In this document: in pieces, positions 11,801 to 45,783 of the stretch
How positions within the stretch are numbered: position 1 is the first letter of the stretch
Layout of the letters: each line of letters begins with the position of its first letter
Source of the DNA: Haliclystus octoradiatus
Taxonomy: Eukaryota; Cnidaria; Staurozoa; Stauromedusae; Haliclystidae
DNA: 64,000 nucleotides
Assembly: GCA_916610825.1 (NCBI GenBank)
Contig: OU744450.1
Coordinates: 2,046,001-2,110,000 of the forward strand
Reading direction: 5' to 3'
Notes under the pieces: model-generated
The model's input: the letters and a program-made list of their open reading frames with translations, nothing else
The model's database searches: none
Told to the model about the DNA's origin: nothing
Program-made: the position numbers and the translations under genes

Positions 11801-14800
11801 AAGCATTATTGCGTGACATCCTATCCAGTCATCAAATCACATATTCCACAAATTCTGACAAATAATTATTAATAATAATTCCAGAAAAGGTAAAACAAGG
11901 AAGACTGAGCTATAAATCAACATCTTAAATTCTTAAAATTCACTTTTCATTACCTGATTTGTGGGAAAATCTGTTTGATGATTAAAGAAGCCAATAGTAT
12001 GCATCTCGTTAGCTGTTTCATGGTCTTCTTCATCCAATGATTCTAAAATTTAAAGAAAAAGTAAAAACATGTAATAAAAATGTGAAACCTGCATATAAAC
12101 GATAAACCTGTTCATAAAATAAGTAATGAGACGGCATATTCATATAAATCACATAGCCAATATTAGTGATACATATAACTCACCTAGCGCATCAACAAAC
12201 TCATCTTCATCAGCCGAACTATCAGATTCAGTTTCACGCTGTTCAATCGCGTTCATACGTATACCAAGTAAAACCTCTTGAGATGAACGCATTGGAGATA
12301 CATTATTTGAAGAACGTGGATCATTTGGTGAAAGATTATATCCATTACTATCTGCTGTGTTGGCGAATCCATTCAAAGGTGGTGATGAGCCAAGCATTTT
12401 AGCTAGTTCATGTTGTGCTTCCATTTCTAGTCTTCTGATATCAGAAATTGTAAGACCGTACCACTCATCTTGCCAGGACCATGCCTGACGATGACCAACT
12501 AGGATTGGATTGCGCAGAGAATCATGGATGAAATGTTCAATTTTACTCTGTAACATAAAAACACAGTATCTTTAAATTATCACAAAGGTTTTCTGCAATC
12601 TGATTGGTTGAAAGATTGTGCATTAAAACCTAGGGTAAAACGTGGCTTCAAAAATTTGGAAACCGCTAGCTTCAAAGATAACAGTAACATGACAGTCTAC
12701 AATTGTTGAAAATTGTTGTTTCTACAAGAGCTGATTGGCCTGTTTAAACCTGTTATAGCGGTCACCTCTATATAGTGGCCACCTTTTAGATTGTTCACTC
12801 TTGTTACGTCTAAAATAGTATATTCTATTGAATCAACCCTGTATATAAAGGTGGACACGGAAGGCTAGACCAAATTCAGAAGAAAATTGGTATTTTTAAT
12901 GATTTATTGGTCAAACATCAACAAAAAAAATCAGAAGAAAATGTTGAAATGCCTCTAGGGTTCCAGAAAGCTGAACTTTCTGTTGAACCATGACAGCGGT
13001 CAATTTATCCATTTCTTGTAGATGGCTGCTATATATACAGGTTATGCTTAAGAGTAGAGTTCAGTCAAGAGGGAGGAAAACTCGTTAAAACAATAGCTAG
13101 ATCACACAAAAAAGGACGAAATCCGCTGATTGGAGAAACTCTCTCATGCCTGACAGCCCATGCGAAAACAGTTCAGGGGTTCATGAACAGTTCATGAACA
13201 GTTCATGAACCGTTCATGAACGTCAAATGGCCCCAAAATTTCATGAACTGTTCATGAACTGTCTGTGAGGGTTCATGAATTGTTCATGAACAGTTCATGA
13301 ACAGTTCATGAACAGTTCAGGAAAATTGGAACCATTTAACGTTCATGAACTGTTCATGAACTCCTGAACTGTTTTTCTCGGGGAAAATCAAAACAAACTG
13401 TTCAACAATTCTTATGATTCATTGAAAAATATTCTGTTTTCCAATCTTAAAATATAAAAGAGAGTTCCTCCAAATTTATGTATGATAATAACTCTTCAAA
13501 TTCTCTATTAAAATGTATGAAAGTAGCTTTATTAGAATCACTGTGTTTTCATCTATGATTTTATTTGGCTTTCTGATTCATTTTCGTTTTGCACTTAAAT
13601 ATGCATCTTTTCATTTTGTGGCCTTCACTGCTTTTCATCAATTCACTTGCTACTGTTTGCGAGGAATTTACTTGTGGATCTCCCCAATCCAACTCAGCCA
13701 ACACTAAACCCAGCAATGCGCGTATCTCATTGCAAGTAATCAATAAATTGGTCTTTTGAAGACTTTAAATTTGCTCTGTCATCATAGAAAATCCTCTCTA
13801 CTACACAATCCATGAAAATAAGTAAGGTTTCTATAGGAGTTATCAAGCTAGATGGTGCAATGCAGGTTACTTGAACTACATACCTGCATTCCCCAATATT
13901 TGAATTCAACTTTGATTAATTTATAAGCGCACATGATTGGTGATTTGGATTTTGTTGCCTTGTGAAGTTTTAACCAATTTTCATTAACTGGACCACGCCC
14001 TGTTTTCTTTGATATGAATATTTGTGGATCCTCTTCTTTTTTGTAACTTGAACTTGGGACCGTATCTTTGATGGGGTCAATGATATCTATATAAGTCAAA
14101 GAGAAATATGAATTATAAATCGTTGAATGTTGTTCTAGCAATCTGATTGGCTAATGGTCATGTTTGGAACTCACAATGAAGACAATGCTAACAATGGCGG
14201 GATATTTGGATCTTTTGGTTTAGAATTAAATTCAGATAGTAATAATAATAATGATAATAACGGAACACAAAGGTTACATACTTGTACAAGTAATGACTTG
14301 TATATCCTTCTGAATGAAACACAGGCGAAAAGTACGAAGTACAAAACAAAGTATGCAGTAAACATTTTCAACGGACACGGTATGTTATTGTGACATTGAA
14401 ATACCATTTATTTGAGGAAATTAATTACTTTCCCGTATTGTTGTGCTGCTGTCGTTGTTGACGTTTTTACTAAGTGATTGATGTGTCATGGAAATGATCA
14501 AATTTGCTTAATTTATAGCAGTCTTATAGATAAATAATGTAAAGTCAACAACTGTGTAGGTATATGTGTTTGTAAGATTGTATTATAGAGTTTTAAGGAC
14601 GAAATAAGACAAACGACCAAACATCAAGATAACTTGTGTAACTCTGTTTTATTAATCATATACGTGTTAGTTTTACAACGCTGTGCAATACACTCCGGTG
14701 TGCCTAATTTACAACTAAGTGTGATTAGTTTAATGACGTTGTAAATATTAGTATTATTAATTATTATATACTACATGCCTCCCCTCGGAGACATAAGTTC

Positions 14801-17800
14801 AATACCTTTTTTCGTCTTTATGGCTGATACCAATTCGGAGTACGACGGATACGGGTTGAACTTTGTTGTTGACCTTTGTCTTTATCTTTGTCTTGGTCTT
14901 TGCCTTGGTCTATGCCTTGGGCGGGGTCTTGCTGGTAGGGGCGGAGAAATCGTCGGTTTCGCCACTTGAGGCGGTTTGTTTCTGTCTTTACTAGATAGCT
15001 GTGTCGACCTTCATATGCTTCAATTATGCTGGCAACGGTGTCCCACTGTTGTGTTTTCGGATTTTGTACCAATACTACTGTACCAGGTAATAAATCTTCT
15101 AAGGGTTTGGAATGTTGGTCCTTGTAGGCCTTTGCCTTCTGCCGGAGAGTGATAGCTTTCTTATCAGCAGCGTTGATTTCTTCTCTTATATCTTTACAAA
15201 ATATTGCGGGTCCAACTGGCAGGCGTGTTCGAGTTGGGCGTCCAAAGAGACGTTGTGCTGGCGATATTCCATCCTTTTTGGGGGTGTTTCTATACTCTAA
15301 TAGACCTTCCAAAAATTCCTTTGTATTAATATTTCCTTTAGGCGTGGTTTTCTTTACTAAAGTCTTCATAGATTTAATTCCTGCTTCAGCAAATCCATTA
15401 CTTTGGTGGTTGTATGGGGACGAGGGATCATGCTTTATACCCCACACTTGACAAAATTTTTTGAAGTCTTGTGACTTGAACTGTGGGCCACCATCAGATT
15501 CTAGGTTGACTGCAATGCCAAGTTTAGCGCTCCATTGAGTTATGCGTTCTACGACATCGTCAGTATTGCTTCCTCCTCTACCAAGGTCATATACTTCTGG
15601 CCATCCAGAAAGACGATCAACAATCACCAGATATTCTTTACCAGCATAACTGAAGAGGTCCATGGCTATAGCTTGACCAGGCCACGTAGGTGCTTCTGCT
15701 TGGCAGATTGGCTCTAGAGGCTGACTGGGTTGATTTAGTTGACATGGTTGGCAATGTTTCACACTTTGAGTGATATCGTTTACCATCTGAGGCCAATACA
15801 CCGTTTGTCTAGCTCTGCCTAGTGTTCTCTCTATGCCTTGATGAGCCGCATGCAGAAGTTTTAACATCTCTGGTCTCAACGACATTGGAATGACAATTCT
15901 TTGACCATACATGATGAGATCTTCATGCAAAGACAAACTTTCTCGCACATTCCAGAACGAATGTAGATCTAAATCTAGGCTGTGCTTGTCAGCCGGAAAT
16001 CCTTCTTTAATGATTTCTTTCAGCTTAATGTATGCACTGTCTTTTGAGGCAGCTGCAGTGACTTTACATAAATTGACGTCTTTCAATGCTGCATCAGCTG
16101 CCACTAGCATGTTTAGAGCGACTTGATTGACTAAAGTATGAATACATGCACTTTCATCTTTGTCTTCGTCATTAGGTTCACTTGTTGGATACCTTGAAAA
16201 TACATCAGCAACAGTGTGTGCTGTTCCAGGACGCCATACAGCAATCGGACAACATCTGTTGAGCTTTTCCTTCAGGCGGATGATGCGTGGAGTTGTCACT
16301 TGATCATAACTCTTGTTGTTGATTATTGATATCAGTGGCTTGTGGTCAGTGACCAACTGAAAATGGGCACCATGTACAAATAGTTTACATTTTTCAACAG
16401 CCCAAACAACAGCTAACAGTTCTATTTCCGTTGCAGAATACCTTGTTTCGGCAGGGATCAGCGAACGACTTCCACATTGAAGCAAATACCATTCGTCGGT
16501 GTCATGTTCTTGCTGCCAGAGGGCGAATCCAAGGCCACGAGATTGTGCAGCATCCGTCTCCAATCGTAGCTTTGATCCTGCTCTGTAATGTGTTAATACG
16601 CGTGGGGATGTGAGTAGCGAGATTAACTCTTTAAATGCTTCTTGCTGTTCCACTCCCCAAATAAACACAGTTTTTGGTGACAGGAGTGCATGGAGTGGTT
16701 CAGCCAATTCACCTACACGAGAGCTAAAAACATCAAATTGGCGGATCAAACCACAAAACGACCTTAAATCTGTTCGATTTGAAGGAGTTGGGAATGATGT
16801 AAGGGCTTCTACTAGCTCTTGTGAAATGGTATAGCCTTCTTTACATAGTTGATAACCACACCATTGTATACTTGGTTGGGCATAAATAAACTTTTTACTG
16901 TTTAGTGTTATACCTGCTGTTCGGCATCTCTCTATTACTGCTCTGACACGTGCATCATGCTGAGGACCCGGTTCTTTGTCAAAAATTATAACATCTTCAA
17001 CAATTTTTTTCACGTTTTCTATGCCTTTGAGGGCTTCATCGCCCCGGCGATTATGTTCATCCCCTGCTGATATGAGACCCATGGCATTTCTCAAAAACCT
17101 TTTTGGTCCCCAAGGGGTGATAAATGTTGTTAGCGTTTTACTATTTTCGTCTAAGGGTACCTGCCAGTATCCATGACGTGCATCTAGGGTGGTAAACACG
17201 CCCATCCCGGGTGGGATTTGTAAAACTTCTTCTTTAGGGGTTTTCATCATGTACCCAGGGCGTTTGACAAACCGATTTAGCTTGGTGAAGTCAACAGTTA
17301 TTCTAGGTTCATCACACCCTTTCTTTGGAACAATGACCATAGGATGGGACCAATCTGGCTTTTCTCCTAGAGGGACATCTTCAATTATTCCTTTTAGCAT
17401 CATTTGATCTAATTGCTTTTTGACTGGCTCTTGCCAATGGAGAGGAATTTGATATGCTTTATAACATTTTGAAGGAATAGCATCTTCTGTTAGTTCAATG
17501 CTCATTGGGGGTCCAGACATGGGTGGGAGAGGGCCATCAGAAGTAAATACATCTGAAAAGTCTGCTAATATTTTTTGCTTCAGTTGGTCCTGACTTGAAT
17601 CTTTCGAAGTGGGCACTATGTGGGTTGCTTTGGGAGAGCTTGGGGGTCCCAGGGATAATGCTTGTAACGGGACCTTGGGCCATTCTTTAGGAATCAATTT
17701 GAGAGCAATACAACCTGCTCTGCTCAATAAAGGATGGGTTACTTCATTCAAAATGTGTACTTTGGCCTTGTACCTATGAGTTTCACGAAATATTTCCAAA

Positions 17801-20800
17801 ATAACATACCCATGGGACTCTAGAGGGGAACCATTTGGTCCAACTAAATGTTCATTTTCAGGCTTAAAGTCAACATCATTAGCCCCCATTAATTGGTAAA
17901 GATCTTGGAGTCCCATTGCGTCACATCCTGCCCCAGTATCAGCTAGCCAATTTATTTGCTTGCTGTGATTTCTATGGGTGGTTTGCAGTGCAATCAAATT
18001 TTCCTGGTGGCTACTTATGTGAGCCATTTCAATACAGTTTTGCGATACTTGTGATTTTGTAAAGCAAAACTTCTGCAAATGACCCTTTTTCTTGCATTTG
18101 TGACACTCTAAATTGATGGCAGGGCAATCTCCTTTTTCATGTTTGGTTCCACATCGGCCACATGCGTCATTTGCCGTGTTTTTCGCGCCAGTATTTTTCG
18201 CGGCTTGAAACTGTTTCGGTTGTTTTTGAAACTTCTGTTTTTTGTAGGCGGACATCGCTCTGTTGGCGTTCACGCTTTTTTCTGTTAATTGATCATCAAC
18301 ATTACGACTTGCCTCGTAATTTTGGCAAATGTCTAAAGTAGCTTTTAAACTTAATTTTTCAAGCGGTGTTTCGAGTACCCTTTGTCTCATTCCTGAGTCC
18401 ATTAGGCCTGATATAACCCGGTCCCTTAATCGTTCTTCACGATGAATTGCATGGTTTGGACAATCCTCGGTGGAATATCCACAGTCTTCATCAATTTCCC
18501 TCAGTGCGGCGTAATAATTGTTAACGCTTTCCCCCTGTTGTTGATCACGTTGAATAAAAACGCGTCGGTCTACAAGTGGGTGGCGATGAATTCGCAGATA
18601 ATCTTTTAATCCCTTAATAATTTCAGCAATGTCATCAGTATCTTCTATTTTGATAATTCCTTGGGTCCACATTTTTGTCCACTCTTCGTTGAGTGTTGAT
18701 CTTAATAAACCTCGACGTGCGTTTAAATCACATTCTTGATGTAGTCTCGTAGCAGCAGCGTAATCATTAAATCTGATTTCCCAGTCACGAAAATCTATCA
18801 ATTTCATGCCTTCAGGACTTTTAAGTTTCGGCATTGATATACGTTTGGCTGTTTGAAGATTTGCTGGTGAATTAGAAGAGCCTTGATGGACATTCGAAGT
18901 TGAAGTGCCCATATTCATAGTCTTGAAAGCATTAGTAAGTGACTCACCCTGTGACTTCATTGCTTCCGCCAACGCCTTTTGCATTTCTTGCTGTTGAGCC
19001 ATCATTACTTCTTGCATTTTTGTTTGCTGGTCAGTAACCGATTGTAAGATTAACAGCATTGGATCTTTCGAGGAATTAGCTAGTTCTTGTCTGAGTTGAA
19101 CTACTTCTGCTTCCAAGTCCGCTTTCGTTGGGTTCTTATTAGCCATAATAAACCACGAAATAAATACTAAGTTTTCGCTGGATTATAACCATGTAAGTCC
19201 GTTGAACATTAATAACAATGATTCAATAAATAACTTTATCTATTGAAATTTATAACTGCGCCATGTAAGATTGTATTATAGAGTTTTAAGGACGAAATAA
19301 GACAAACGACCAAACATCAAGATAACTTGTGTAACTCTGTTTTATTAATCATATACGTGTTAGTTTTACAACGCTGTGCAATACACTCCGGTGTGCCTAA
19401 TTTACAACTAAGTGTGATTAGTTTAATGACGTTGTAAATATTAGTATTATTAATTATTATATACTACAGTGTTCAATGATAAATATCAGAGCTTTAATAG
19501 ATTAATTGATAAAATGAGTCAAAAAGAGACTACTTCTCGCTACTCCGAGTTTCACATCATATGGTGATCATCAGGCAAGTATATCAGGCAAGTATGATAC
19601 TTGCCTGATGATCGCCATAGCAGTCTTATAAATTTGTGCAGTCCTTATCTCCGACTGATATACTTTGTATAGGATAATTCAATCAAACCAATCAATAATA
19701 GGCCGTACTAATAAATTAATTTATGTTGTTTGCGCACATGGCATTATGCGATCGATTCCTGTCTACGCGACAAGAAGATGATGATGAAAAAGAAAATCAA
19801 CGTTTTTCCAGCATCATAGGATAGACTCAAAATATCTGATCAAATTATGAATCATTTACTGTCATTGACATTCTCATTTGATAAAATAATCGAGAACGGA
19901 TTAAATCCACCTGGGAATTTAGATTGAGCTTGTCTCCTATGAAGTCTGAAATATGTTTCAGTCTTGTCTGTTATCAGCCTTATCAAGTCTCTTATGAAAA
20001 GCAATGCATATAAAAGGCAGTCCCATTTGGATTCACAATGATATAGGCCTAGTAATTGAAAATTGACTTGCTACTTCATCAATATGCTTGTTAATTGAAT
20101 TGCAGAAGATTGTGAACCGTCTGTTTTTATTGTCTCACGTAGGTAATTTTAGGTAACATACATAACCTCAGTCTCAAAGCAAGTCATATTTAAATTGATA
20201 TGATAAAATATTGGCGGCTTATACTATAAGACTTAAAAAAGTAATGTAGACGGTATCGCCCTATCGAAGGCACCTGTACCACTCCTCTATTTCTAGAAAA
20301 GTGGCTTTTTTCGCTAAGAGCATTAAACGCTCTTTACTGATTTTCAAGATTTTACGACTTAGTAGTATTATAATGAGAGTGGTTTTCTGAACCATTTTAA
20401 GTGCCTCCTAGCAGCCCGAGTATTCATATAACCAATATTGCGCAAGAACGTGTTTAATATTTGATTTATAAAATAGAAATACCCTATACGTTATCAATAA
20501 ATCCTTCCTTGTGATGCGTGATCAAACATATCGATCAATAGTGGTCAGAAATTATCACTTGTATCGTTCAATATAAGGAAAGCTTGAATCATCTAACCAT
20601 GATTCAAAGCAAAATTCTTGATTACCCAGGTTACGGTTCGTCATAGCCGAATCATAACATTCAAATTCATTTCGAATTACAAATGGAAGTGTGTTTGTGA
20701 GGCGTTTCATTGAAAGCATTTCGATATTAGGTTTTAATGGAAGTTCCACTCGTTCTATTTTCTAATGACTAATATCACTGGGCTACTTTGAGATACAGTG

Positions 20801-33752: not shown

Positions 33753-36700
33753 ATGAATGGTTTGCAACATGCAAATGGTGATGCGTCTGTCAATGATAAC
33801 CTTTTGTACAGTCAATATGGGACCTCTCCTTCTGATCAAATGATGGAACTCTATATTATCAAAGATAGATTACGAGTATGTTCCATCAAGAAGAAATCAA
33901 TTGCAGCTTATATGCATACAATCACTAAGGCAGCTCTGCTACACGATTCACGGTAAATTGATATTATTTTGCTTTGCACATTGACTGTTTTTAATCCCAT
34001 AGCCTACTGACAGGTCGAAGGTTAGAATTCATGCAGTGAGCTCAAGTGACGTCTACCGGCAAACGTTATATTGTTTATTCCTGTTAAACCTTTGAAAATA
34101 CCTTTGTTTTTTTAGCTTTGAACCATTATTTATAAAAAATTACTCATTGTTGTTGTTCGGAGGAAACTGTTTTTTATAGAATGGGCTTGCATCAGTCTTT
34201 GCTACCTTGCGAAAACAAATGAACAATATTTTATTTTGAACGACCGGCAAGATATATGAATTTCAGAAGCATTTCAAAGCATTACGAATAAAATCATTAC
34301 GATTTCAAAGCAGCATGATGTAACAATCAGCACGTTAGAGCTTATACGTATTTCAATTAACATTTGAATGAAAATTCTATAAGTTAGGGACTAGATCTGC
34401 AGCTATATAATTGGCTTTAATGTATTTGTCTTGTTTTCTTGAATGTTGTTTACTATACAAAACATGGATATAATTTTTGACATCAACAAAGTTGACATTT
34501 ATCTGCATTAAAGCTTTCATTTAAGGCAACTGCCTGTCAATCATCTTAAATAAAAAGCCTTCTTTGATAAATTTTAAATTTCTTCCATGGACTGAAAGTC
34601 AATCAATCAGATTCTCACCCTTAAGCGTAGGAGATGGAGCTGATGTGGCTTTTGTTAAATTGTTAATTAGAAAGTTAAATATGAAGCAGAAACCCAATGT
34701 GGGAGAAAGGAGCCTCGCCTGGTATCCAATATTTCCTCTACTAATTGTTCTAGTCAGACTTTTGAACTTTTATTTAAAAAAGTAACAATGACTGGCGGTC
34801 GCTACGAGCTCAACTTGAATTAAGCTTAGCGTAAATTCAACAATCAATGACAGTCATGGCTTCGACATGGCTTCAAATTTCAAATTTCAGCATGGTTTCA
34901 GACACAGAAACAGTACAAACGAAAAACACACATGTGACAAGTGTTTAGATACTATCGGTCATTTTTGCTCCTGCAATTTGTGCTTTAGGAGGATTTTTGC
35001 AAATTTGCTTTGTTCAAACATTCAAATGCACCATACAACACACGTACAAATCTATATACACTTGCTCGTGTTTATACTGACCGCGGTAAAATAACGTTTT
35101 CCTTCCGTGGGGCTTCACTCCTCAATAAATATAGTCAAATAGAAAATTGTCGCAAAGAAAAATACAAATTAGAAGTTAAAAATAGACTAAAATTATAAAT
35201 AGAACATATCATTTTGCATTATGAAAATCAGTCAGACATCAAGAATCAACAACCTTATAATGAATCATACTTATAAACTGTAAAAAATTAATTAGCCTAG
35301 AAATCCCTGTATCAAGTTGTTTATATGTCTTTAAATATACTAATATCTATCTATCTATTGTAAAAAGTCTCCTATATATAATGTCAGTCAAACTGATTAA
35401 CAGTGTTATTTGTGGTTCATAATAAGGCAGGAATACTGCATTTGTGCACAGAAATCATTAGCGCTTCAGTAGCTCAGCCAAATGCCTAGCTTGTGTGGCC
35501 AAATTTAAAAGATAGCTATTTCCACTGCATGTTTTCTCCAGTGCTACTTCATCTTGCAAGCTAATTCTGTTGCTATTTTGATATACTAGGTTTCGAGTTG
35601 CATCCAGATGCATGCTTATTTTCATGCTTATATTGAGATATGAATCGCCTGGCTTAACTGTTCAAAATAAATTCATGAAGAAATCTATGTAGCTTAGATA
35701 ATCTGATCGAAGCCTTAATTTAATTGTGAGACTATGGTCGATGTGAGGGAGACATAAACGACACAGTAATAGTTTCAAGTAAATAACATATCACTGGTCC
35801 CTCGATAAACTCTAAACGCGAGTTGCTTGAGTCAGACTTCAAACTCTGTTTTTATATTAATGACAAACACCGCTGACCTTTGATCCTGCATTCAGCTGGC
35901 AGACTTTACTAGTTTCCATTCCATCATAAATTACATCACGGCTATGATCACAGGAAGGGACAACAAGCAACATGCAATATATCTAAACATAAATCTATGT
36001 AGCCAAGATAATCTGATCGAAGCCTTATCTTAATTAAGAACATATTCTACTTCATGTTTTGCTGTTGAAAGAAGCAGAAAGTTTGAAGCGAGAAGTAGAA
36101 CGTTTGCACATGGTTTTATTTACTAAATTAGGTACTATTTACTTGATCCCAAAGCACGTGGAAGCTGTAGCCATACCCCCTGAAAATATCCAAGAAACAT
36201 CACTGACCCGAATGTCATAAAGTTGTAAAGTACAACATTTTATATCACTGGAAATATTTTATAACATTGTAATTTAATTTCCATAACGCGGGTTTGTTTA
36301 CAAATTTGATAACGTTTTACTCCAAATCTTGACTTGCCCAAGTCTCACTTTACTTTTACGATTTTGATATGTTGGTAAGTGGTACGCTTACCGCTCGTCA
36401 AAGTGCGGTATATCAAAGCGGGACTTATAGATCAGTCAACTCCAAATCTTTTTCCGATATTAATTTCTGGTTATATAATTTCCAAATCAAGATCAGATGA
36501 TAGCACATCTTATTTTCTTCACTTTCATATAAACACATGTGTTTTTGTTTGTTTACGTTTGACTTTCCATTTTGAGAATTACTACGGGGAAAATACATAG
36601 ATCGTACTGTTTTGTATTTGCGAGACAATAGAGGTTTATTGAAATGCGAAACTGTTTAATTAGCGCTTCAGTCTGAGAAATGATTGTTGTTGAAAAGCGA

Positions 36701-39700
36701 AACAGTTTTTATTGGTTTTTCGCAACTTATATGTATTTATTTAAAAAATGAAACCGGCCATGTAACCCCTCTGGTTAATGACGAATCCATTGATGAATAA
36801 TATGTTTCTCAAGTATATTGCATCTAAAACGGCATCGTGAATCCCCGCCTTACCTACTACAGACATACAAATGGAAATAACGTAAATTTAAAAGTAGATG
36901 GGTTAATTATTATTGATCAGCCCTCTTATGGTTTGAATTATCTTTTTTTTTCAGGCCCTCATTATTCAGTTTCACAGAAACCTTACACGATTACACAGTT
37001 ATTTTATCTGAGGAACAATTCCACGGTAAGAATATATTCAATTTCTGAAATATTATGAAAGGGTCGGCATGGACGAGACAGGAAACATGCAGTTATTAGA
37101 AACTTTAATCTTTATAATATTATGGCTGTAAAAAATGTAGTTATTATGTTGTTGTTATTTGTTTACTTTTCTTTGCAGAGCTCCAGCAACATGGTGATTT
37201 TGAGTACTCTCCGTATCCATGGCGTATATTTACTGTCTCTGCAGGGGCGTTTGGTACTTCGAAACTTGTTGGTGTTAGCAAAATTGCTAAATCTGTTATT
37301 GGACCATTGGCTGATCATGCAATTTCTGTCCTTTGTCTTTCAACGTATCAATCAGATTATATTTTGGTAGGTTGATTTTAGTTTGCTGTATAGCAGTGCC
37401 AGCTTATAGAATGCGTGTTGTATTTCAAAGAGATAAAAGAGAGTGGTTTACTATAATAAATAAATGAATAATAATTAATTAAAGTTTGTAGCTTCGTAGC
37501 TAACTATCTCTTGTAACAACAACAAGAAAACGTTTTTTTTTAGTTTACGGTATTGTGCAATACTGATCGTAAAGTATGACCAGTTAACACATTGACCCTT
37601 ATCAACTTAATTCGTTTGATAGGTACAAGAACCGTTCCTTGATGAAGCAATCAAATGTCTTGGTAGCTATTTCAAAATATATAATGATGATCACGAAAAA
37701 GTGGAAGACATGAAAAGACCACCTCAAAATCCACCAGCATCACGTAAGAAGCATGTACCTACTTTATATCCAGGATCAGACAATTTAGGTTCATCTGTCT
37801 GGGATCCTAGAGGCATTTTAACATTTCTTCTGATTTTTTGTTGAGGTTTGACCAATAAATCATTAAAATATCAGTTTCCGTCTGGATTTGCTCTAACCTT
37901 CTGGTTCAGGATAAGCGGGGCTAATTAAAGTTGAATGCTCTTAACCAAATATGTATTCAAGGGGGCATCAATACTATGATATGTGGATGTTTGAATATTG
38001 TTATTGGACATGGATGTTATTTGATGTAGGACATATATTTTATTCATATCTTGATAGTAAAAGGTAAAAAGAATGAGCATGATACAAGTTGGCAATAGGG
38101 AATTCTACTGATAATAGATTAAATTAATAAATTAGTAAACAGAAATACAAAATTTCCTAAGTTTTTATAAACTTTTCTTGACATTCGTTGATGAACTGTT
38201 CATGAACTCATGAACGGACTGTTCATGAACTCATGAACGGGCTGTTCATGAACTCATGAACGGACTGTTCATGAACTCATGAACATTTCTGCAGGCGTAA
38301 TATGTACGTCTATTTAACATCAAAGACATATAGCAAGATCAAGATGAGTTAATCAATGTGGTGATAAATATTCACCACATGAATCTATACCTACAAATGT
38401 TTGATCTATTTTATAGCTAAAGATCGTGCTATTACTCATCCACTTATTTGTCCATCAAACAAATTTTACATAACTGGTTTACATTGGTCACGATTGCCTA
38501 ATGTCTTACAAATTCTGTTGGAGATTATGTTTTATCCAAGGTAGGTTTGAATGTTATATAAGTTTTCTCGTATAACCCGTTCTGATCAGAGTCAGACCAA
38601 AAGGATAATCCTTCAATCCTAGATTCAAGAAAATTGATATTATTAATACCAAATACCATTGTACATATACCAAGGGTGATCACTATAGACATGTGACTGC
38701 TGTATAGAGATGATCGTAATATCAGGTTTTACTGTACCAATTTTATGGAATGACGATGCAACCATTTTTGTTTCTAATAGATAATGAATTACGTTATCTT
38801 GAGTTAAAAAACCCTTCCTTATGGATTTATTGGATAGGCTATATGCATCCGAATTGTTGCGGATACGCAATATTAGAGGTGTACAGGAGCCGGAGTCAAA
38901 CTCCAGTCTGGCAGGAGTATCCATATTTCAACAGGAACCAAACTGGAGAATATTTAACCAGTCAGGATCAGAAGTCGCAGCCGGAGTCTAGAATTAAATC
39001 CTGTTTATTTCTTAATTAGTATTGTAAAGTTAAATATTGTCTGGATATTCTACATAGAGGTTGGATTGTTAATGTATTTCAAATTATGTTAATTTATTTT
39101 TTACTTTTTAATGTTTGGTTAAAATTGAGGTGATAAATTAATTAATTCTCAGGACATTTATAGGAGTTTGTCTGAAATAGTTTGGAGCCGATGTCAGAGT
39201 TTGAATCTATTTTTCATATATTTTTGGGGGCGGACTCAGAGTTCAACACTTCTATATGGACTTTTTTCGGATTCAGGGTCTGAAAATTCTGACTCTGTAC
39301 ACCACCGGTAACCAAGTTTTAGGTCAGTTTGTTTAATACAGTTTTTGTGTTTTCTTTTCAGTCCTATTGATCCAAAAAGTAACAAAGAACCATTTTTCCA
39401 TTTTTCTGCCATTCAAGGTGATATCTCATTGATACTAGATGGAGACGCTCTTGCAAAGTAAGTCTTTTACATAACAGAAACAAAAATACTTCTCTCCAGT
39501 TCCGCATCCTGGGAAACTGCGAACATAATCAGAAGGTTTCACTTATGTAGGAGATTTAATAACGACACAATTCATATAATTTTGATACTCTTTATTATGA
39601 TATGGCAGGCCGTGTCTGCTGACATTACAGGGAGAGATGCTAAGGGCTACTATGGCCGTTAGTCAGAGCTCTTTGATACAACAGGCACGACCGTACAGTA

Positions 39701-42700
39701 AAATAGTAAGAGGCGAAAGAGAGCGTTTACGTGGTACAGTTTACACACATATAGATTTACAGGAGATGATTAACAATAGACAAATATACGAGGACGTGAA
39801 TACAATATAAAACCACTACACTTCTAAGTTTTGTTTTCATTTTCAAATTAGCCTATTTCGATTTCAAAATTGCTTTTATTTTGAATTCATGTTATGGACT
39901 TTATCAAGCTCCAAACAAGCAAGTCAAGTTTAATCTACTGTATTTTGTAGGCAACAATCCTTCAAAATGTTCAACTTAATTTTTAATCCAAATTGTGCTT
40001 TGTCCGCGGAAGGCTAATATGATGTTAAATATTTTTGAGGGGACCTCAGAACTTTTCCTTCTGTGAAATGGAAAAATCAACCTGCCCTTTCCCCCCTTTT
40101 AGATAACCTGTGTATATGCCTATATGGGTTACCTTATATGTATGTAAGGTAACCTGCTTCAAATGGTCACAATGGAGGATCAACTCAAATGAAAGAGCAA
40201 CCCGATTTAGGATATACAGTGTAACCCGCTTAAGTCAAAATTGCCAACGGTTTTCATTGCATTTATCCAAATTTGCGGTTATCCGAAATTGTTCACCAAG
40301 GACTTGACCAGAAAATTGTTTAACGGATTTCAAAGCCAGGTTGCAGATACACGGGAATTTCACTTATCCGAATTGCACATAAGCGGGTTACACTGTATGA
40401 TCATATCAGATCAGGATCTACTATATCGTCTGTGTTTCAAAACCCCTAAAGCTTAACTCAGCCTTGATTTATATAAAACATCAAATGAGTATCAGTATCA
40501 TCTGATGCAAGATGGAATGGTCCAGAGGGAATCGCATTGTGAAGAGCTGCGCCGTACTGCTGCGCCTTGAATGATTGATACATATCTGCCATTAGATCTG
40601 TTGAAATTGATCTGCAGTTGTCCCGGCTGATATCAATAAAGAGCATTTACAATCATTGCTCTTCAGTCAAACCTGTTATAACGGTCACCTCTATATAGCG
40701 GCCACCTGTCTATAGTGGTCACTCTTTCAATCTCTAAAGTAGTATTTTCTATTGCATCAAACCTGTATACAAAGGCCACCTGTCTATAGTGGTCAATTTA
40801 TCTACCTCTCTTAGCTGGCCGTTATATGCAGGTTTCACTGTAGCACAAAGAGCCACTCCTCCAGAAATAGAAGAGTGGTACGGGCGCCTTTGGTAGGGTG
40901 GTGATAGTCTCTCAGTTACTACTTTTACTTACAACACTAATGTATTTGTACTGTCTTATTGTCAAGATTCCCTCCTGATTCTCTGTACACTTCAACGAAC
41001 GACGAGAGTTGGCGAATGATAAAAATCGGTGACAATCCTCTTGGTTTCGGTATGTTCACTTAGACTCAATTTATGATTTTGTTATCCCTTCATAGAGACC
41101 TGAGTAATCTAGTCTGGTTTTGGTCCTGTGTTTTTGTGAATGTGTTCTGTTCAGGGTCGGACAAAAGTAGGAATCCTGGAATCCTAGATAAACCGACACT
41201 ACCCGACTGCTGACTGGGCTGCAATTCCTATAGCCATACATGAACTAAACTACATGTATGATTTACCTGATTCAAGAGACCAAGCTGTCTTTCAGAAGGC
41301 ATTCATATTTGACCACATATTTGTAATGATTCATGGACTGATACTCAGGGTTAATTAATGTGATTGGTCATTTTCGGGATTGCCCATTACAGTCAAACCT
41401 GTTACACCAGTCACCTCTATATATCAGCCATCTGTCTATAATGGCCAGTCCTGTATTGTCTAAATGACTATTTTTTATTGAATCTGTCCTGCATATAAGG
41501 TAACCTGCATCTAGTGGTCAATTTATCTCTCTTGTAGCTGGCATTTATGTGCTAGGCTCACCCCACTTCACTCGCTACGTCTAGTTGATCAGTTGTTTGT
41601 AGGCAACGTAATAGTGAGATGGTCTACTTCGAATATTCTCAATTATCTTAATGTGTTTTTACAAGAGTATACCAATGGTGCATTTATTAGGATTGTCTCA
41701 TCAACATCTATTATCCGAATACGTCCTTGATGCCAACTAATGCGTTGTGTTTGGTATTCAGTATGTTTTCTTAACAAACATATCATTTCATGGCCTTCAA
41801 TGATCTATCCATTAGTAATAGTTTTATGAAGTTTAATCTTATGTAATGAGGTACGATAGCCTGCGTGCAAACTAAAACGTTTCTAAAGGATACAAACGAA
41901 GTTGATAATATGTATTAATTTAAGAAGAAATGAGAATCAGTAATTAGTAATTTTACAAATTAAACTGTGCAAGAAAGGCATGGAATATTGGGGTATTGAC
42001 ATTGTATATGAATTATCATAAATGAATGACCCCGTTGTATATTGTATAATTGCAGCTTATTTATCATGATAACATTTATCCGGTTTTGTAAAAATTTTGT
42101 TTTCAGGATTTGTATTTATGTTCTCAAATTAAGTTATAATTTAATTGAATACTGATGCTGACAATTGAATAGGGATTTCAGCTCAATTCAGATGGCAGAG
42201 CAACAAGTCACCAATTCTGATGGTCTATGGTTCCAGTCCGCCTTCATTTTAATTGGACTGTGGACATCACAATACACTGACTTGTGATGTCGCATGGAAA
42301 TGATTCAGTTTCATATTCGATGTTCTTTTTAAAACTCATTCAATTAATTCAATGGCCAATTAATTATCTTATAGATGTCCATGGCGTCGTTGCTCAGGTG
42401 TCTGAACCAATAGCAACCACTGGCATATCGACTTACTATATCAGTACATATAAATATGGACATACGCTGGTTTGTATTTTGTTTTCATCTTAATAATTAA
42501 TCACTATATATTACGTAAAGAAGATGACGATAAAATTGACCTTATCTTATCAATTAAACGTGCTGGTGGTATCAGATTCATTATCTTCATTTATCGAGGT
42601 ATTCTCGACAGAAATAAAAACGTAAAAACAGCAAAAAATGTGGTGGAAAAACGGATTGGGAAAATGTGTTTTTTGATATTATTTTTCTCGAAATGAGATG

Positions 42701-45700
42701 TGTTCATTTTCATCTCGAACATTTAATTTCACATATTTATGCATTTTGTAAAAATTTAAAAGTGTGATGATAATTATTACAATAATTTAACTAAAATAAT
42801 TATGATAATATAAAATCAAAAATATAAAAATGACTCATCACGATAATTCAAACATTTGAGACTAATATCACGGTAATTCAAAAGTATGTCGCTAATTATC
42901 ACGGTAAATAAAATATTTGGTGATAATTTTTGTCGCAATCAATATTATCATCTATAATCGTGAAATGATTTATAAATTCATCATTGATGAGTTCCACAAT
43001 AAAATTTGACTAAAACAAGAAACAGGAAAGTATTTATGGTATTTTTATGAACATTTATGTTAATTTCAAGTTGCCCGGAGAAACCTGCCGTTACAGTTTT
43101 GAATCAACAAAACAAATTAAAAATATTACGCAAAATCGTCAGCTATATACGTCGAATTTAAGAAGCTTTTGTGATATTTTCTCAATATTATTCATCTCAC
43201 TAATTACTGAATCAGCTTGATATCAAGATCTCTTATCAATTAAATATCAATATCTCTATTAATAATTAACTCAAAAAAGGTTTGTCGACATTGCCAGCGG
43301 TTGCTTTCTACGATTAATTGAAACGCATCTGTTTGACGCCTTGGACATAATCACTAGTCAAGCCTAATCAACGTAATCGTTATCACATATCGAGAATTAT
43401 ATTTGAAAATGATTTTCAATCTTCACAGAGGAATGTGGTATAGTCGCGCAGGTGGCTGACCCACTGTCTAACGCTGGTATATCAACATACTACGTCAGTA
43501 CTTATCTCAATGATCAGTCACTGGTAGGTCACGTGATCAAGTTATTGTTCTTTTTGTCTCCAGCTATGTGTGATAGTGAATGACACCCGTTTACTTTCGA
43601 TAATTATTATATATCACGATAACATGTGTGATAGAACGACACCATTTGTTTCCTATACATGACGACGACAGCATCAGATTTTTGTTAGAACTGTAAATAT
43701 GTGTGATAGAACGACCCCATTTGTTTCCTATACATGACGACGACAGCATCAGATTTTTGTTAGAACTGTAAATATGTGTGATAGAACGACACCATTTGTT
43801 TCCTATACATGACGACGTCGGCATCAGATTTTTGTTAGAACTTTTAAATATGTTGTGATAGAACGACACCCGTTTACTTTCTATACATCGCAATAAATTC
43901 AAATTCATGTTATTGTACAAGAATGTAAGCGAGGTTGAATTCCAACTCAAATGTTTTGATTGAAATTTTTGCATTGAAATATTTTTGATCTGTTTTCTTC
44001 TTGTCTTTTTGATTTGAATTTGAAATGTCCACGCTACCGTTTGTGTTTCGTTTTTGAATGCTTCTTCAGACTGATAAACAATGCTCTGATAGAATATGAA
44101 GTAATCCCAGATAAAATGATAAATTTCTATAGAAACACCGTTAGATGTTACTTCATTTCTTTCATTTCAAAAACATTTTGAGTTTTCCCGCCAATTCCAG
44201 GATTTGAAAACCAGGTCTTTGTTTTCTCTTCAATTCGTCACGTGATCATTTCATCTGAAGTTAATCCTTAACTTTTGGTTAGATAATAATCAAAACAATC
44301 CTAACCATAATTTACCGAAATTAGGAGAAATTATCAATGATGTTTTGTGTTTTAACTTTTGGTTGAATGGATTGAAGTATTTTGAGCTTTTAAATTGTTT
44401 ATCGTGCATAATATCATATGATAATATCTCGGTCTATTTATTTTAAAGTATAATGGATTTTGACTTTCTAACGGAAATCAACACTCTTACAAGGAAATGA
44501 CTTACATGACTGCCCTATAGTTCAAATTTATTAAAGTTTGAAATCATTCGCTTTTTATTTTTCTAGCTCGATAATTCTGATATTTGCGTAACACCAAAAT
44601 CCAATGTAGGCCGAACGCCACAGAGCTAAAACTGCAGGTTTCTCCGTACAGCTTGAAAATCACATAAAAGAGTTCATAAAAATATGCTAAACAATTCCCT
44701 ATTCCTTGTTTTAACTAAATTTTATTGTAAACCCTTCAAAAATCCAATTTATATTCATGATTCCCGGTCAAAGCCTTTTTTACAATTTTGAGAAAATGCT
44801 CCATGTGAGCTTCATGATCTTTGATTCTTTTGTTTCCCTTGATTTTGCGAATCCATAGAAGCATGACGAAACACAAAATGTATGAATTAAGAGGGCTTTG
44901 ACCGTGAAATGATTTATAAATTCATCGTTAATGAGCTCCACAATAAACTTTGCTAATGCTTTTGCACCTCTATTTCCGATGAAATCCGCTCATCAAGTGT
45001 CTGGAGGATCCTGATGGTGGCTGAACTTCTCCATCCTTGAGGAAAATTAAAACTTTCTGTGAAATTTCATCGAATTGTTGGATTAAATAAATGCTAGGAT
45101 GTGACAAGATTTGGTAGCAAAATCCTTAAATGGTTATGAAAAATTACGATTCCAGAAGATTAAAACGTTTTCCTGAATTTTTCAAATATTGACCAGAAGC
45201 TCGTTTGAAATTTTTTATATTTGAGGCAAGTGTTATTTTGAACTAAAACTGGGTTGAACTTGCGAAAAAATGTATGTGCACCCAACGAGGAATCAAACTG
45301 CGGCCTCCCTCGTTTGCTGCAGGCATTCTATACCACTGAAACTGACATAATTAATTGTTGGAATGTGACATACATAATTGTAAAAATAGGAAGGAAATGT
45401 TACTTAAAGGAGCAAAAATGACCGGCAGGCGCCACGCACTTAGGATCACGTGCACGCTTATTGTTATAACACAATGTTCATTGTTGACATGAATTTTATT
45501 ACAAGTTAGGCCTGCGTATAACAATTGTTTCAAAGCGAGACGGTTGAATTACGCTAAGCATAAATTCAACTTGTACTCGCAGCGGTCGCCGGTCAATTTT
45601 GCCCCTTTAAGATTTCGAAAGAAGAAACCTTATGATCAGAGAATCTGCTCTTATTCGAGGGATATGAACAAATATAAATATGAATTATTTACATCTTTTT

Positions 45701-45783
45701 TTTTTTAGGTGTTAGATACTGATATTGAGCAAGTTTTGGAATTATTGAAAAGTCGAAGAATTGTAGAGGAAGACGCTATATAG
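33753..45783 (+). CDS. CASTOR: CASTOR-family cytosolic arginine sensor (GATS-like), with two alternative penultimate exons
   Basis: Exons: 33753-33952, 36955-37025, 37179-37366, 37623-37743, 38417-38540, 39362-39457, 40967-41049, then either 42375-42469 or 43429-43523, then 45709-45783 (stop TAG). Phases match at every junction; either choice gives 350 residues (human CASTOR1 is 329). The four-ACT-domain protein binds GATOR2 and inhibits mTORC1 until arginine binds between ACT2 and ACT4. Seen here: MELYIIKDRLRVCS (ACT1 start), FSFTETLHDYTVILSEEQF, VSKIAKSVIGPLADHAISVL with the Ser equivalent to S111, LSTYQSDYIL with the Y-Q-x-D equivalent to Y118/Q119/D121 needed for GATOR2 binding, WRMIKIGDNPLGF, and the last helix VLDTDIEQVLELLKS. 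The ATG at 33753 adds 38 residues before MELYIIKDR; a start at one of the later Met codons just before ELYII is also possible. CASTOR1 versus CASTOR2 cannot be told apart. Confidence 0.95.
34789..34972. mobile_element. TTAA-type MITE, diverged copy
   Basis: Shares the ACTGGCGGTCGCTACGAGC end, the AAGCTTAGCGTAAATTCAAC block and the CGGTCATTTTTGCTCCT end with the two intact copies. TTAA flanks are lost. Confidence 0.65.
38188..38285. repeat. GTTCATGAAC tandem minisatellite in a CASTOR intron
   Basis: Four direct copies of a 23-bp unit, CTGTTCATGAACTCATGAAC plus GGA or GGG, about 130 bp before exon 38417-38540. It is preceded and followed by the usual family ends (CATTTCTGCAGG). Confidence 0.8.
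38668..38736. mobile_element. Pogo-like MITE fragment
   Basis: One half of the family (GATCACTATAGACATGTGAC ... AGGTTTTACTGTA), in a CASTOR intron. Confidence 0.6.
38876..39308. repeat. Dispersed repeat with GGTGTACA...TGTACACC ends
   Basis: Begins GGTGTACAGGAGCCGGAGTC and ends GACTCTGTACACCACC; the interior is rich in GGAGTC/GACTCC. An inverted relative lies at about 49,430-49,690. It occupies a CASTOR intron. Confidence 0.55.
39546..39820. mobile_element. Possible solo LTR in a CASTOR intron
   Basis: 275 bp with TGTAG...CTACA ends. Read on the minus strand it has a TATA-like start, an AATAAA about 60 bp from its end and a CCTACA terminus, the layout of an LTR. No clean target duplication is seen for these ends; shifting both boundaries slightly gives a CACTT repeat (39540-39544 and 39819-39823). 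It is not similar to the gypsy LTR at 14,571 beyond the ends. Confidence 0.4.
40217..40397. mobile_element. MITE of a second pogo-like family
   Basis: The ends CAGTGTAACCCGCTTA and TAAGCGGGTTACACTG are perfect inverted repeats next to TA. About 180 bp. A lone end of similar type (GAGGAACCCGCTTAAATTG) is at about 47,470. Confidence 0.8.
40664..40840. mobile_element. Pogo-like MITE, intact
   Basis: CAGTCAAACCTGTTATAACG at the left end and GCAGGTTTCACTG at the right, with TA after the right end. It lies in the CASTOR intron just before exon 40967-41049. Confidence 0.8.
41390..41563. mobile_element. Pogo-like MITE, diverged
   Basis: Starts CAGTCAAACCTGTTACACC and keeps the internal GGTCAATTTATCT block; the right end is decayed. 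Confidence 0.65.
42375..42469 (+). CDS. CASTOR: CASTOR alternative exon 8a (diverged arginine-pocket copy)
   Basis: 95 bp between an ATCTTATAG acceptor and a GTTTGT donor, entered in phase 1 and left in phase 0, exactly like exon 8b. The translation begins DVHGVVAQVSEPIATTG and ends STYYISTYKYGHTL. It is 16/32 identical to 8b. Aligned to human CASTOR1, the residues at 277, 278 and 304 are V, H and G instead of E, C and D. The frame is open, and the structural core (G, VAQV, P, GIST-YY, STY, L) is kept, so it looks functional rather than decayed. The donor is weaker than that of 8b. Confidence 0.85.
42517..42606 (+). pseudogene. Possible relic or alternative form of the CASTOR terminal exon
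   Basis: About 50 bp after exon 8a, an open frame reads KEDDDKIDLILSIKRAGGI. This resembles the real last exon (LDTDIEQVLELLKSRRI) and the vertebrate C-terminal helix (PEDGIGSVIEVLQRR). The nearest AG acceptor (ending 42517) would put it in the wrong frame after exon 8a, so as it stands it cannot extend the protein in this frame. It may be a decayed duplicate of the last exon; the resemblance is modest and could be chance. Confidence 0.3.
43429..43523 (+). CDS. CASTOR: CASTOR alternative exon 8b (canonical arginine-pocket copy)
   Basis: 95 bp, acceptor CTTCACAG, donor GTAGGT. The translation begins EECGIVAQVADPLSNAG and ends STYYVSTYLNDQSL. It keeps E, C, G, I (human E277, C278, G279, I280), T300 and D304, which line the arginine pocket of ACT4. 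This is the copy expected in an arginine-responsive protein. Confidence 0.95.
43565..43890. repeat. 75-bp minisatellite in the intron after CASTOR exon 8b
   Basis: Three near-perfect 75-bp units start at 43624, 43699 and 43774, with partial units on both sides (GTGTGATAG-GA-CGACACC). Because 75 is a multiple of 3, the minus strand shows a spurious repetitive open frame; I do not call it a gene. Confidence 0.9.
45275..45345 (-). repeat. tRNA-derived sequence (SINE head)
   Basis: Minus strand: CAGTGGTATAGAATGCC (A-box-like) and GTTTGATTCCTCG (B box) about 30 bp apart. It lies in the last CASTOR intron. Confidence 0.55.
45408..45606. mobile_element. TTAA-flanked MITE, copy 2 (inverted)
   Basis: Same 199-bp element as 27,779-27,977 in the opposite orientation, again between TTAA tetranucleotides (45404-45407 and 45607-45610). 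It lies in the last CASTOR intron, about 100 bp before the final exon. Confidence 0.85.

Follow-up and report, generated by a model that had tools for sequence, protein, structure and literature searches.

Paired ACT4-pocket exons in a CASTOR gene of Haliclystus octoradiatus as a candidate splice switch for arginine sensing

One CASTOR gene carries two alternative pocket exons

CASTOR is one of the few direct amino acid receptors upstream of mTORC1. We analyzed a 64,000-nucleotide (nt) window of Haliclystus octoradiatus contig OU744450.1, in which one complete CASTOR gene lies on the plus strand with two alternative exons, 8a and 8b, for the ACT4 segment of the arginine pocket. The spliced open-frame model joins seven shared exons (33753 to 41049, in window positions, as throughout), one of the two alternative exons, and a common last exon (45709 to 45783). 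Every intron starts with GT and ends with AG, and the product is 350 amino acids (aa) long with either alternative exon. Pocket residues below follow human numbering.

33753..33952, plus strand: CASTOR coding exon 1, start codon at 33753 (spliced open frame, GT-AG sites)
36955..37025, plus strand: CASTOR exon 2 (spliced open frame, GT-AG)
37179..37366, plus strand: CASTOR exon 3, ACT2, with S111 and the GATOR2-contact residues Y118, Q119, and D121 (open frame, residue alignment)
37623..37743, plus strand: CASTOR exon 4 (spliced open frame, GT-AG)
38417..38540, plus strand: CASTOR exon 5 (spliced open frame, GT-AG)
39362..39457, plus strand: CASTOR exon 6 (spliced open frame, GT-AG)
40967..41049, plus strand: CASTOR exon 7, with lid residues L273-G274-F275 (open frame, residue alignment)
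42375..42469, plus strand: alternative exon 8a, encoding a pocket segment of ACT4 that has Gly at human 304 (open frame in the phase of 8b; profile E = 1.8e-18)
43429..43523, plus strand: alternative exon 8b, encoding a pocket segment of ACT4 that has Asp at human 304 (open frame; profile E = 1.1e-17)
45709..45783, plus strand: CASTOR last exon, with the stop codon (spliced open frame)

Both isoforms belong to the CASTOR family. Their best PDB matches are to CASTOR1/CASTOR2 over most of the length (E = 2e-67 for the 8b isoform and 2.9e-67 for the 8a isoform), the Pfam domains Castor1_N, CASTOR1_ACT-like, and ACT_7 all score above their curated cutoffs in both, and homology to human CASTOR1 (PDB 5I2C, 5GT7, and 5GS9) extends over isoform residues 27 to 343. 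For comparison, we used 67 related proteins, 66 from the main search and one (P0067) added by exon-region queries (6 and 3 matches). Two of these relatives, P0022 and P0010, gave 8 and 9 matches in the genome, all in this locus; no second CASTOR locus was found by these queries, which a very divergent copy could escape.

Exons 8a and 8b are built alike: each is 95 nt long, is entered in phase 1 and left in phase 0, and is flanked by AG and GT, and the two lie 959 nt apart. By the end of exon 7 (41049), 883 coding nt have accumulated, which leaves phase 1. With both exons included, the frame meets a stop 15 nt after 8b begins, which is 80 nt upstream of the last junction. Premature stops that far before the last junction usually trigger mRNA decay, so decay of such transcripts is expected and the choice of one exon would be enforced; skipping of both shifts the frame to a stop within the last exon, with loss of the ACT4 core. 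The two exons thus form a mutually exclusive pair by its usual signs, being neighboring and homologous, equal in length and phase, and frame-breaking when both or neither are used. Tandem-duplicated mutually exclusive exons, such as those of the myosin heavy chain genes, are likewise adjacent, homologous, equal in length and phase, and expected to appear one per mRNA; what sets the present pair apart is that its swapped segment forms a nutrient sensor's ligand pocket. The coordinates, lengths, spacing, phases, and GT-AG sites given in an initial annotation of this DNA, and its statement that both or neither exon breaks the frame, all proved correct, and the exon pair is confirmed. The mutually exclusive use proposed there draws support from the frame logic and from an equal exon swap between two database isoforms of the coral Porites lutea, described below.

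Signs of coding constraint in both exons

The two exons are identical at 16 of 32 residues, the figure first reported for them, and at 63 of 96 nt when the shared first base is counted. An exon 8 profile built from the segments of 51 relatives' rows, with the window's own exons excluded, was run on the 3566 open stretches of the window in six frames. It gave its best score to 8a (E = 1.8e-18), followed by 8b (E = 1.1e-17) and, at a distance, the ACT2 exon of the same gene (E = 0.0014); the remainder stood at 0.87 or worse, and no third copy of exon 8 was found by this profile among the open stretches of the window. Differences between 8a and 8b fall on codon positions 1, 2, and 3 in the numbers 10, 5, and 18, and rough figures over 32 codons are 0.34 for nonsynonymous (dN) and 0.99 for synonymous (dS) divergence. 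This is the pattern of two coding exons under constraint.

The pocket residues change and the GATOR2 contacts are shared

By alignment, 8b matches human CASTOR1 at E277, C278, G279, I280, V281, T300, and D304, and 8a has V277, H278, G279, V280, V281, T300, and G304. The contrast between E-C-G-I-D in 8b and V-H-G-V-G in 8a at 277, 278, 279, 280, and 304, as first read from the DNA, is therefore borne out. The common exons carry the human residues S111, V112, and L113 and the lid L273-G274-F275, together with the GATOR2/MIOS contacts Y118, Q119, and D121, whose position in an exon common to both isoforms was also recognized correctly. The arginine-pocket set S111, L273, I280, and D304 is complete in the 8b isoform; the 8a isoform has S111 and L273 but V280 and G304, and on account of these two residues it is not classed as an arginine sensor.

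According to the papers on human CASTOR1, Asp304 makes a salt bridge with the guanidinium group of arginine (PMC5187391, PMC5020642). Arginine binding is undetectable in D304A, which pulls down more GATOR2 (PMC5187391), and in D304L, L273A, and I280A (PMC5020642). The Asp304-to-Gly change in 8a, set beside the undetectable binding of D304A and D304L (PMC5187391, PMC5020642), supports the earlier prediction that the 8a isoform would not bind arginine. The MIOS-binding interface of CASTOR1 is separate from the arginine pocket (PMC12477443; preprint PMC12136191), and the structure of CASTOR1 with GATOR2 solved by cryo-electron microscopy (cryo-EM) was built with S111A/D304A as an apo-locked form (PMC12477443). 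CASTOR2 does not recognize arginine and associates constitutively with GATOR2 (PMC5187391).

Glycine and aspartate at position 304 in relatives

Position 304 was scored from an alignment of the 67 proteins, and cnidarian and noncnidarian rows were tallied by their printed organism names. Asp is found in 35 proteins, Gly in 22, Glu in 7, and Ala in 1 (a fungal protein); 2 do not cover the position. All 19 named noncnidarian animal rows have Asp304. Among the 12 named cnidarian rows, 10 have Gly304, and the 2 with Asp304 are Porites lutea isoform X4 (P0042) and Pocillopora verrucosa isoform X2 (P0018). The Y118/Q119/D121 patch is kept in 21 of the 22 Gly rows, the exception (P0053) being a model without that stretch.

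Porites lutea isoforms X3 (P0037) and X4 differ at only 18 residues, all at 248 to 278, which is this exon, and they show the same Gly/Asp swap at human Asp304 as 8a and 8b. The duplicated exon, for which related species had been named beforehand as the place to look, is thus not absent from them: the exon swap extends beyond Haliclystus, and stony corals show it too. Two further comparisons show a similar concentration of differences. P0018 (Asp) and Pocillopora damicornis P0033 (Gly; a model that includes an additional rearranged stretch) have closely similar flanks and differ at 57 columns, of which this exon accounts for 18; P0013 (Gly) and P0067 (Asp), both from JGI contigs and perhaps from two different species, show 31 residue differences, 17 of which fall within the exon.

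Both Porites lutea models also lack a 31-residue stretch upstream of this exon that is present in P0014, and coral CASTOR may have a second splicing choice. Glu304 occurs in seven CASTORs that we take to be hydrozoan-like (P0001, P0002, P0003, P0005, P0006, P0009, and P0064), the six longer of which bear a C-terminal extension (461 to 498 aa).

Origin of the exon pair

An exon tree was inferred from 32 columns and 53 of 69 rows (the 67 proteins and the two window isoforms); the 16 omitted rows are fragments, broken models, surplus vertebrate rows, and two distant outliers. A backbone tree without exon 8 comprises 51 rows and omits those 16, the window 8b isoform, and P0033. In the backbone tree, the window gene lies within a 23-row set (support of 100/99) alongside jellyfish-like and hydrozoan-like proteins and joins the jellyfish-like ones (80/76), with a long-branch warning on that join; the label jellyfish-like is based on one row, named Rhopilema esculentum. 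In the exon tree, 8a groups first with the Gly exons of jellyfish-like proteins and then with those of corals (93/77, on a branch that is not starred), and 8b falls among Asp exons. The jellyfish-like Gly exons are the nearest exon relatives of 8a, with 72% identity to P0010. P0007 and P0010 share STYKYGHTL unchanged with 8a; what remains of the HTLV stretch also occurs in Asp rows and is thus ancestral. Six rows grouped with Dendronephthya have Gly304 only, and of the seven hydrozoan-like rows of the exon tree, six have Glu and one (P0008) has Gly.

A single ancient exon duplication is the origin that these sequences appear to favor, although it is unproved. When the window exons are compared with those of Porites, orthologous pairing yields 37 identities, versus 30 within species and 29 crossed, and it ranks best in 84 to 92% of column bootstraps, or in 65 to 85% without column 304. 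This pairing, together with the grouping of 8a with jellyfish-like and then coral Gly exons, argues against separate duplications behind the Gly/Asp pairs of Haliclystus and corals, an account that we regard as rather unlikely. Separate origins nevertheless withstand approximately unbiased (AU) tests on the 32 columns (p = 0.091 for 8a with 8b and p = 0.064 for coral Gly with coral Asp), and 8b and the coral Asp exons do not form a clade in the tree, where forcing them together costs 4.5 log units (p = 0.166). The question concerns history only, and separate duplications would be compatible with the function proposed below.

Five jellyfish-like proteins (P0007, P0010, P0011, P0019, and P0046) are Gly-only. 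The lid is lost in all five, with L273 replaced by Phe and G274 by Glu or Asp, and S111 is changed too in two of them; the lid of the window gene is intact and common to the 8a and 8b isoforms. A related group of ten proteins is Asp-only (P0016, P0022 to P0025, P0027 to P0029, P0032, and P0034). P0007 of the Gly group and P0022 of the Asp group have gene names of the same style and may, as linked by these names only, belong to one genome. If they do, the pattern suggests that jellyfish split the exon types between two genes and that the lid of the Gly gene decayed once arginine no longer had to be bound. We put forward tentatively, at somewhat less than even chances, a wider scenario in which a cnidarian splice switch predating the coral/medusozoan split sets CASTOR to arginine or else to a second ligand or nothing; jellyfish would later have divided the exon types between two genes, as vertebrates have sensing and nonsensing CASTOR genes, and isoforms and paralogues would be interchangeable mTORC1 settings.

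A candidate splice switch for arginine sensing

We consider it probable that this one CASTOR gene gives rise to two proteins through mutually exclusive ACT4-pocket exons, an arginine-regulated form with 8b and an arginine-blind form on GATOR2 with 8a. The anatomy, frame logic, family membership, and pocket residues of the gene and the swap in the coral database entries are seen directly in the sequences; what we infer is expression of both forms in this animal and the arginine blindness and constitutive binding of the second. The swapped exon would encode the half of the arginine pocket that ACT4 contributes (human residues 276 to 307). The 8b protein, with the pocket and Asp304 retained, is predicted to be an arginine-regulated GATOR2 inhibitor that leaves GATOR2 as arginine rises. 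In the 8a protein, Gly would replace the salt-bridge partner and the GATOR2 contact would be retained, so that the protein would stay on GATOR2 at any arginine level; with Gly304 and an intact Y118/Q119/D121 patch, it is expected to act like apo-locked human D304A or CASTOR2. On the best reading of the sequences, 8a would thus be a natural arginine-blind isoform and 8b the sensor. The idea of 8a as a constitutive GATOR2-bound brake, raised in the initial annotation, gains strength from the apo-locked human S111A/D304A protein and, for this animal, keeps the standing of an inference.

How far arginine can lift the mTORC1 brake would depend on the ratio of 8a to 8b, probably by way of mixed dimers. 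CASTOR dimer contacts have been placed in ACT1 and ACT3 (PMC5020642), outside the swapped exon, so mixed 8a/8b dimers should form, as with CASTOR1-CASTOR2 heterodimers. A cryo-EM preprint names ACT1 and ACT4 instead (PMC12136191), in which case mixed dimers would be less certain.

Two human proteins resemble the predicted 8a isoform. Apo-locked S111A/D304A likewise lacks the Asp304 carboxylate and keeps the GATOR2 patch intact, but it is a laboratory double mutant, whereas 8a is natural, retains S111, and is changed at further pocket positions. CASTOR2, arginine insensitive and GATOR2 bound, behaves as predicted for the 8a isoform and is, by a narrow margin, its best PDB match (9kpb); unlike 8a, it is the product of a separate gene and retains Asp304 and most pocket residues (PMC5020642), with DHAL read in the PDB match, whereas Asp304 is removed here by splice choice.

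Several observations weigh against our reading. Besides having two ACT4-pocket exons, the window gene differs from human CASTOR1 in carrying Asp for Y236 and, in 8b, Asn for F303. Y236 is a peripheral MIOS contact, and Y236A disrupts binding in human cells (PMC12136191); Asp also occupies this position in the rows of Saccoglossus, lancelet, and sponge and in the majority of cnidarian-like ones, so that Y236 is not family-defining outside vertebrates. S111 is Pro or Thr in 5 of the 10 Asp-group rows and Pro in Lingula and lancelet, and Asp304 alone is therefore no proof of arginine sensing. A search of the genome for the MIOS family (PF21719) returned no match, but the control was positive in 0 of 14 genomes, which makes the search uninformative and leaves the genome with no confirmed GATOR2 gene. 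For the coral isoforms, which are database models, read support was not seen, and the reading for this species comes from genomic DNA. Finally, the 8a donor, GTTTGT, is the sole donor of nine without A at +3, and its pairing with U1 is weaker than that of the 8b donor (-6.4 versus -8.8 kcal/mol), although pairing is poorer still at four other donors of the gene; with the weaker donor at 8a, 8b may be the default exon.

As the main alternative, the 8a isoform could sense another small molecule, with Gly304 and the changes at 277, 278, 280, and 302-303 retuning the pocket so that one gene serves two ligands. Gly is the only nonacidic residue at 304 in the cnidarian-like rows (22), which is more regular than plain loss needs, and G279, T300, and the LGF lid are retained in most Gly rows. 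We nonetheless judge a second ligand improbable: it has no candidate, the loss of L273 and G274 in all five jellyfish-like Gly-only proteins resembles pocket decay, and the rest of the HTLV stretch is shared with Asp rows. Most improbable of all is that 8a has no function in this animal, being a duplicate of 8b that has decayed or is seldom used, since the weaker donor, an acceptor with 10 of 17 pyrimidines, and knowledge of the exon here from genomic letters only are set against an open frame, a matching phase, the top profile score of the window, few second-position changes, 72% identity to the P0010 Gly exon, and the Gly/Asp alternative in coral isoforms.

To our knowledge, human CASTOR1 has no such exon pair. 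A CASTOR splice switch was not found described in the literature searched, which covered CASTOR1/GATSL splicing, cnidarians and their mutually exclusive exons, and corals, with most subscription papers outside its scope; it included a study of intron retention in rat and a coral paper that does no more than cite a CASTOR article. A 2024 paper on how mTORC1 sensors evolved states that fungi and many animals have lost CASTOR1 homologues, among others (PMC10957897); the available passages of that paper mention neither cnidarians nor Nematostella. If our reading of the Haliclystus gene is true, cnidarians encode the on and off states of arginine sensing by splicing, a natural counterpart to the apo-locked mutant of human cryo-EM, and the purpose of an arginine-blind CASTOR becomes directly testable. 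The isoform ratio might then be set by feeding, life stage, or, in corals, symbiosis, which is likewise directly testable.

Repeats near exon 8b and other features of the window

Oppositely oriented copies of a dispersed repeat at 42985 to 43110 and 44610 to 44735 flank 8b and could pair in the pre-mRNA. Their duplex around 8b has an energy of -91.8 kcal/mol, whereas 262 pairs drawn at random from these introns average -29.9 (standard deviation, 6.4; lowest, -51.5). The best candidates scored genome-wide include another 42 matches to the repeat upstream of 8b. A dedicated splicing structure was set aside because the upstream arm is a dispersed repeat, which we treat as mobile-element debris; an influence of the inverted repeats on 8b use is possible.

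Just 3' of 8b, at 43621 to 43845, lie three tandem copies of a 75-nt unit, which keep open a 191-aa minus-strand frame (43594 to 44166) that is probably no gene. Elsewhere on the minus strand, a 1454-aa open frame spans 14821 to 19182, and an open frame at 12152 to 12571 matches, with its residues 4 to 53, the end of IP_trans (phosphatidylinositol transfer protein family; E = 1.9e-15).

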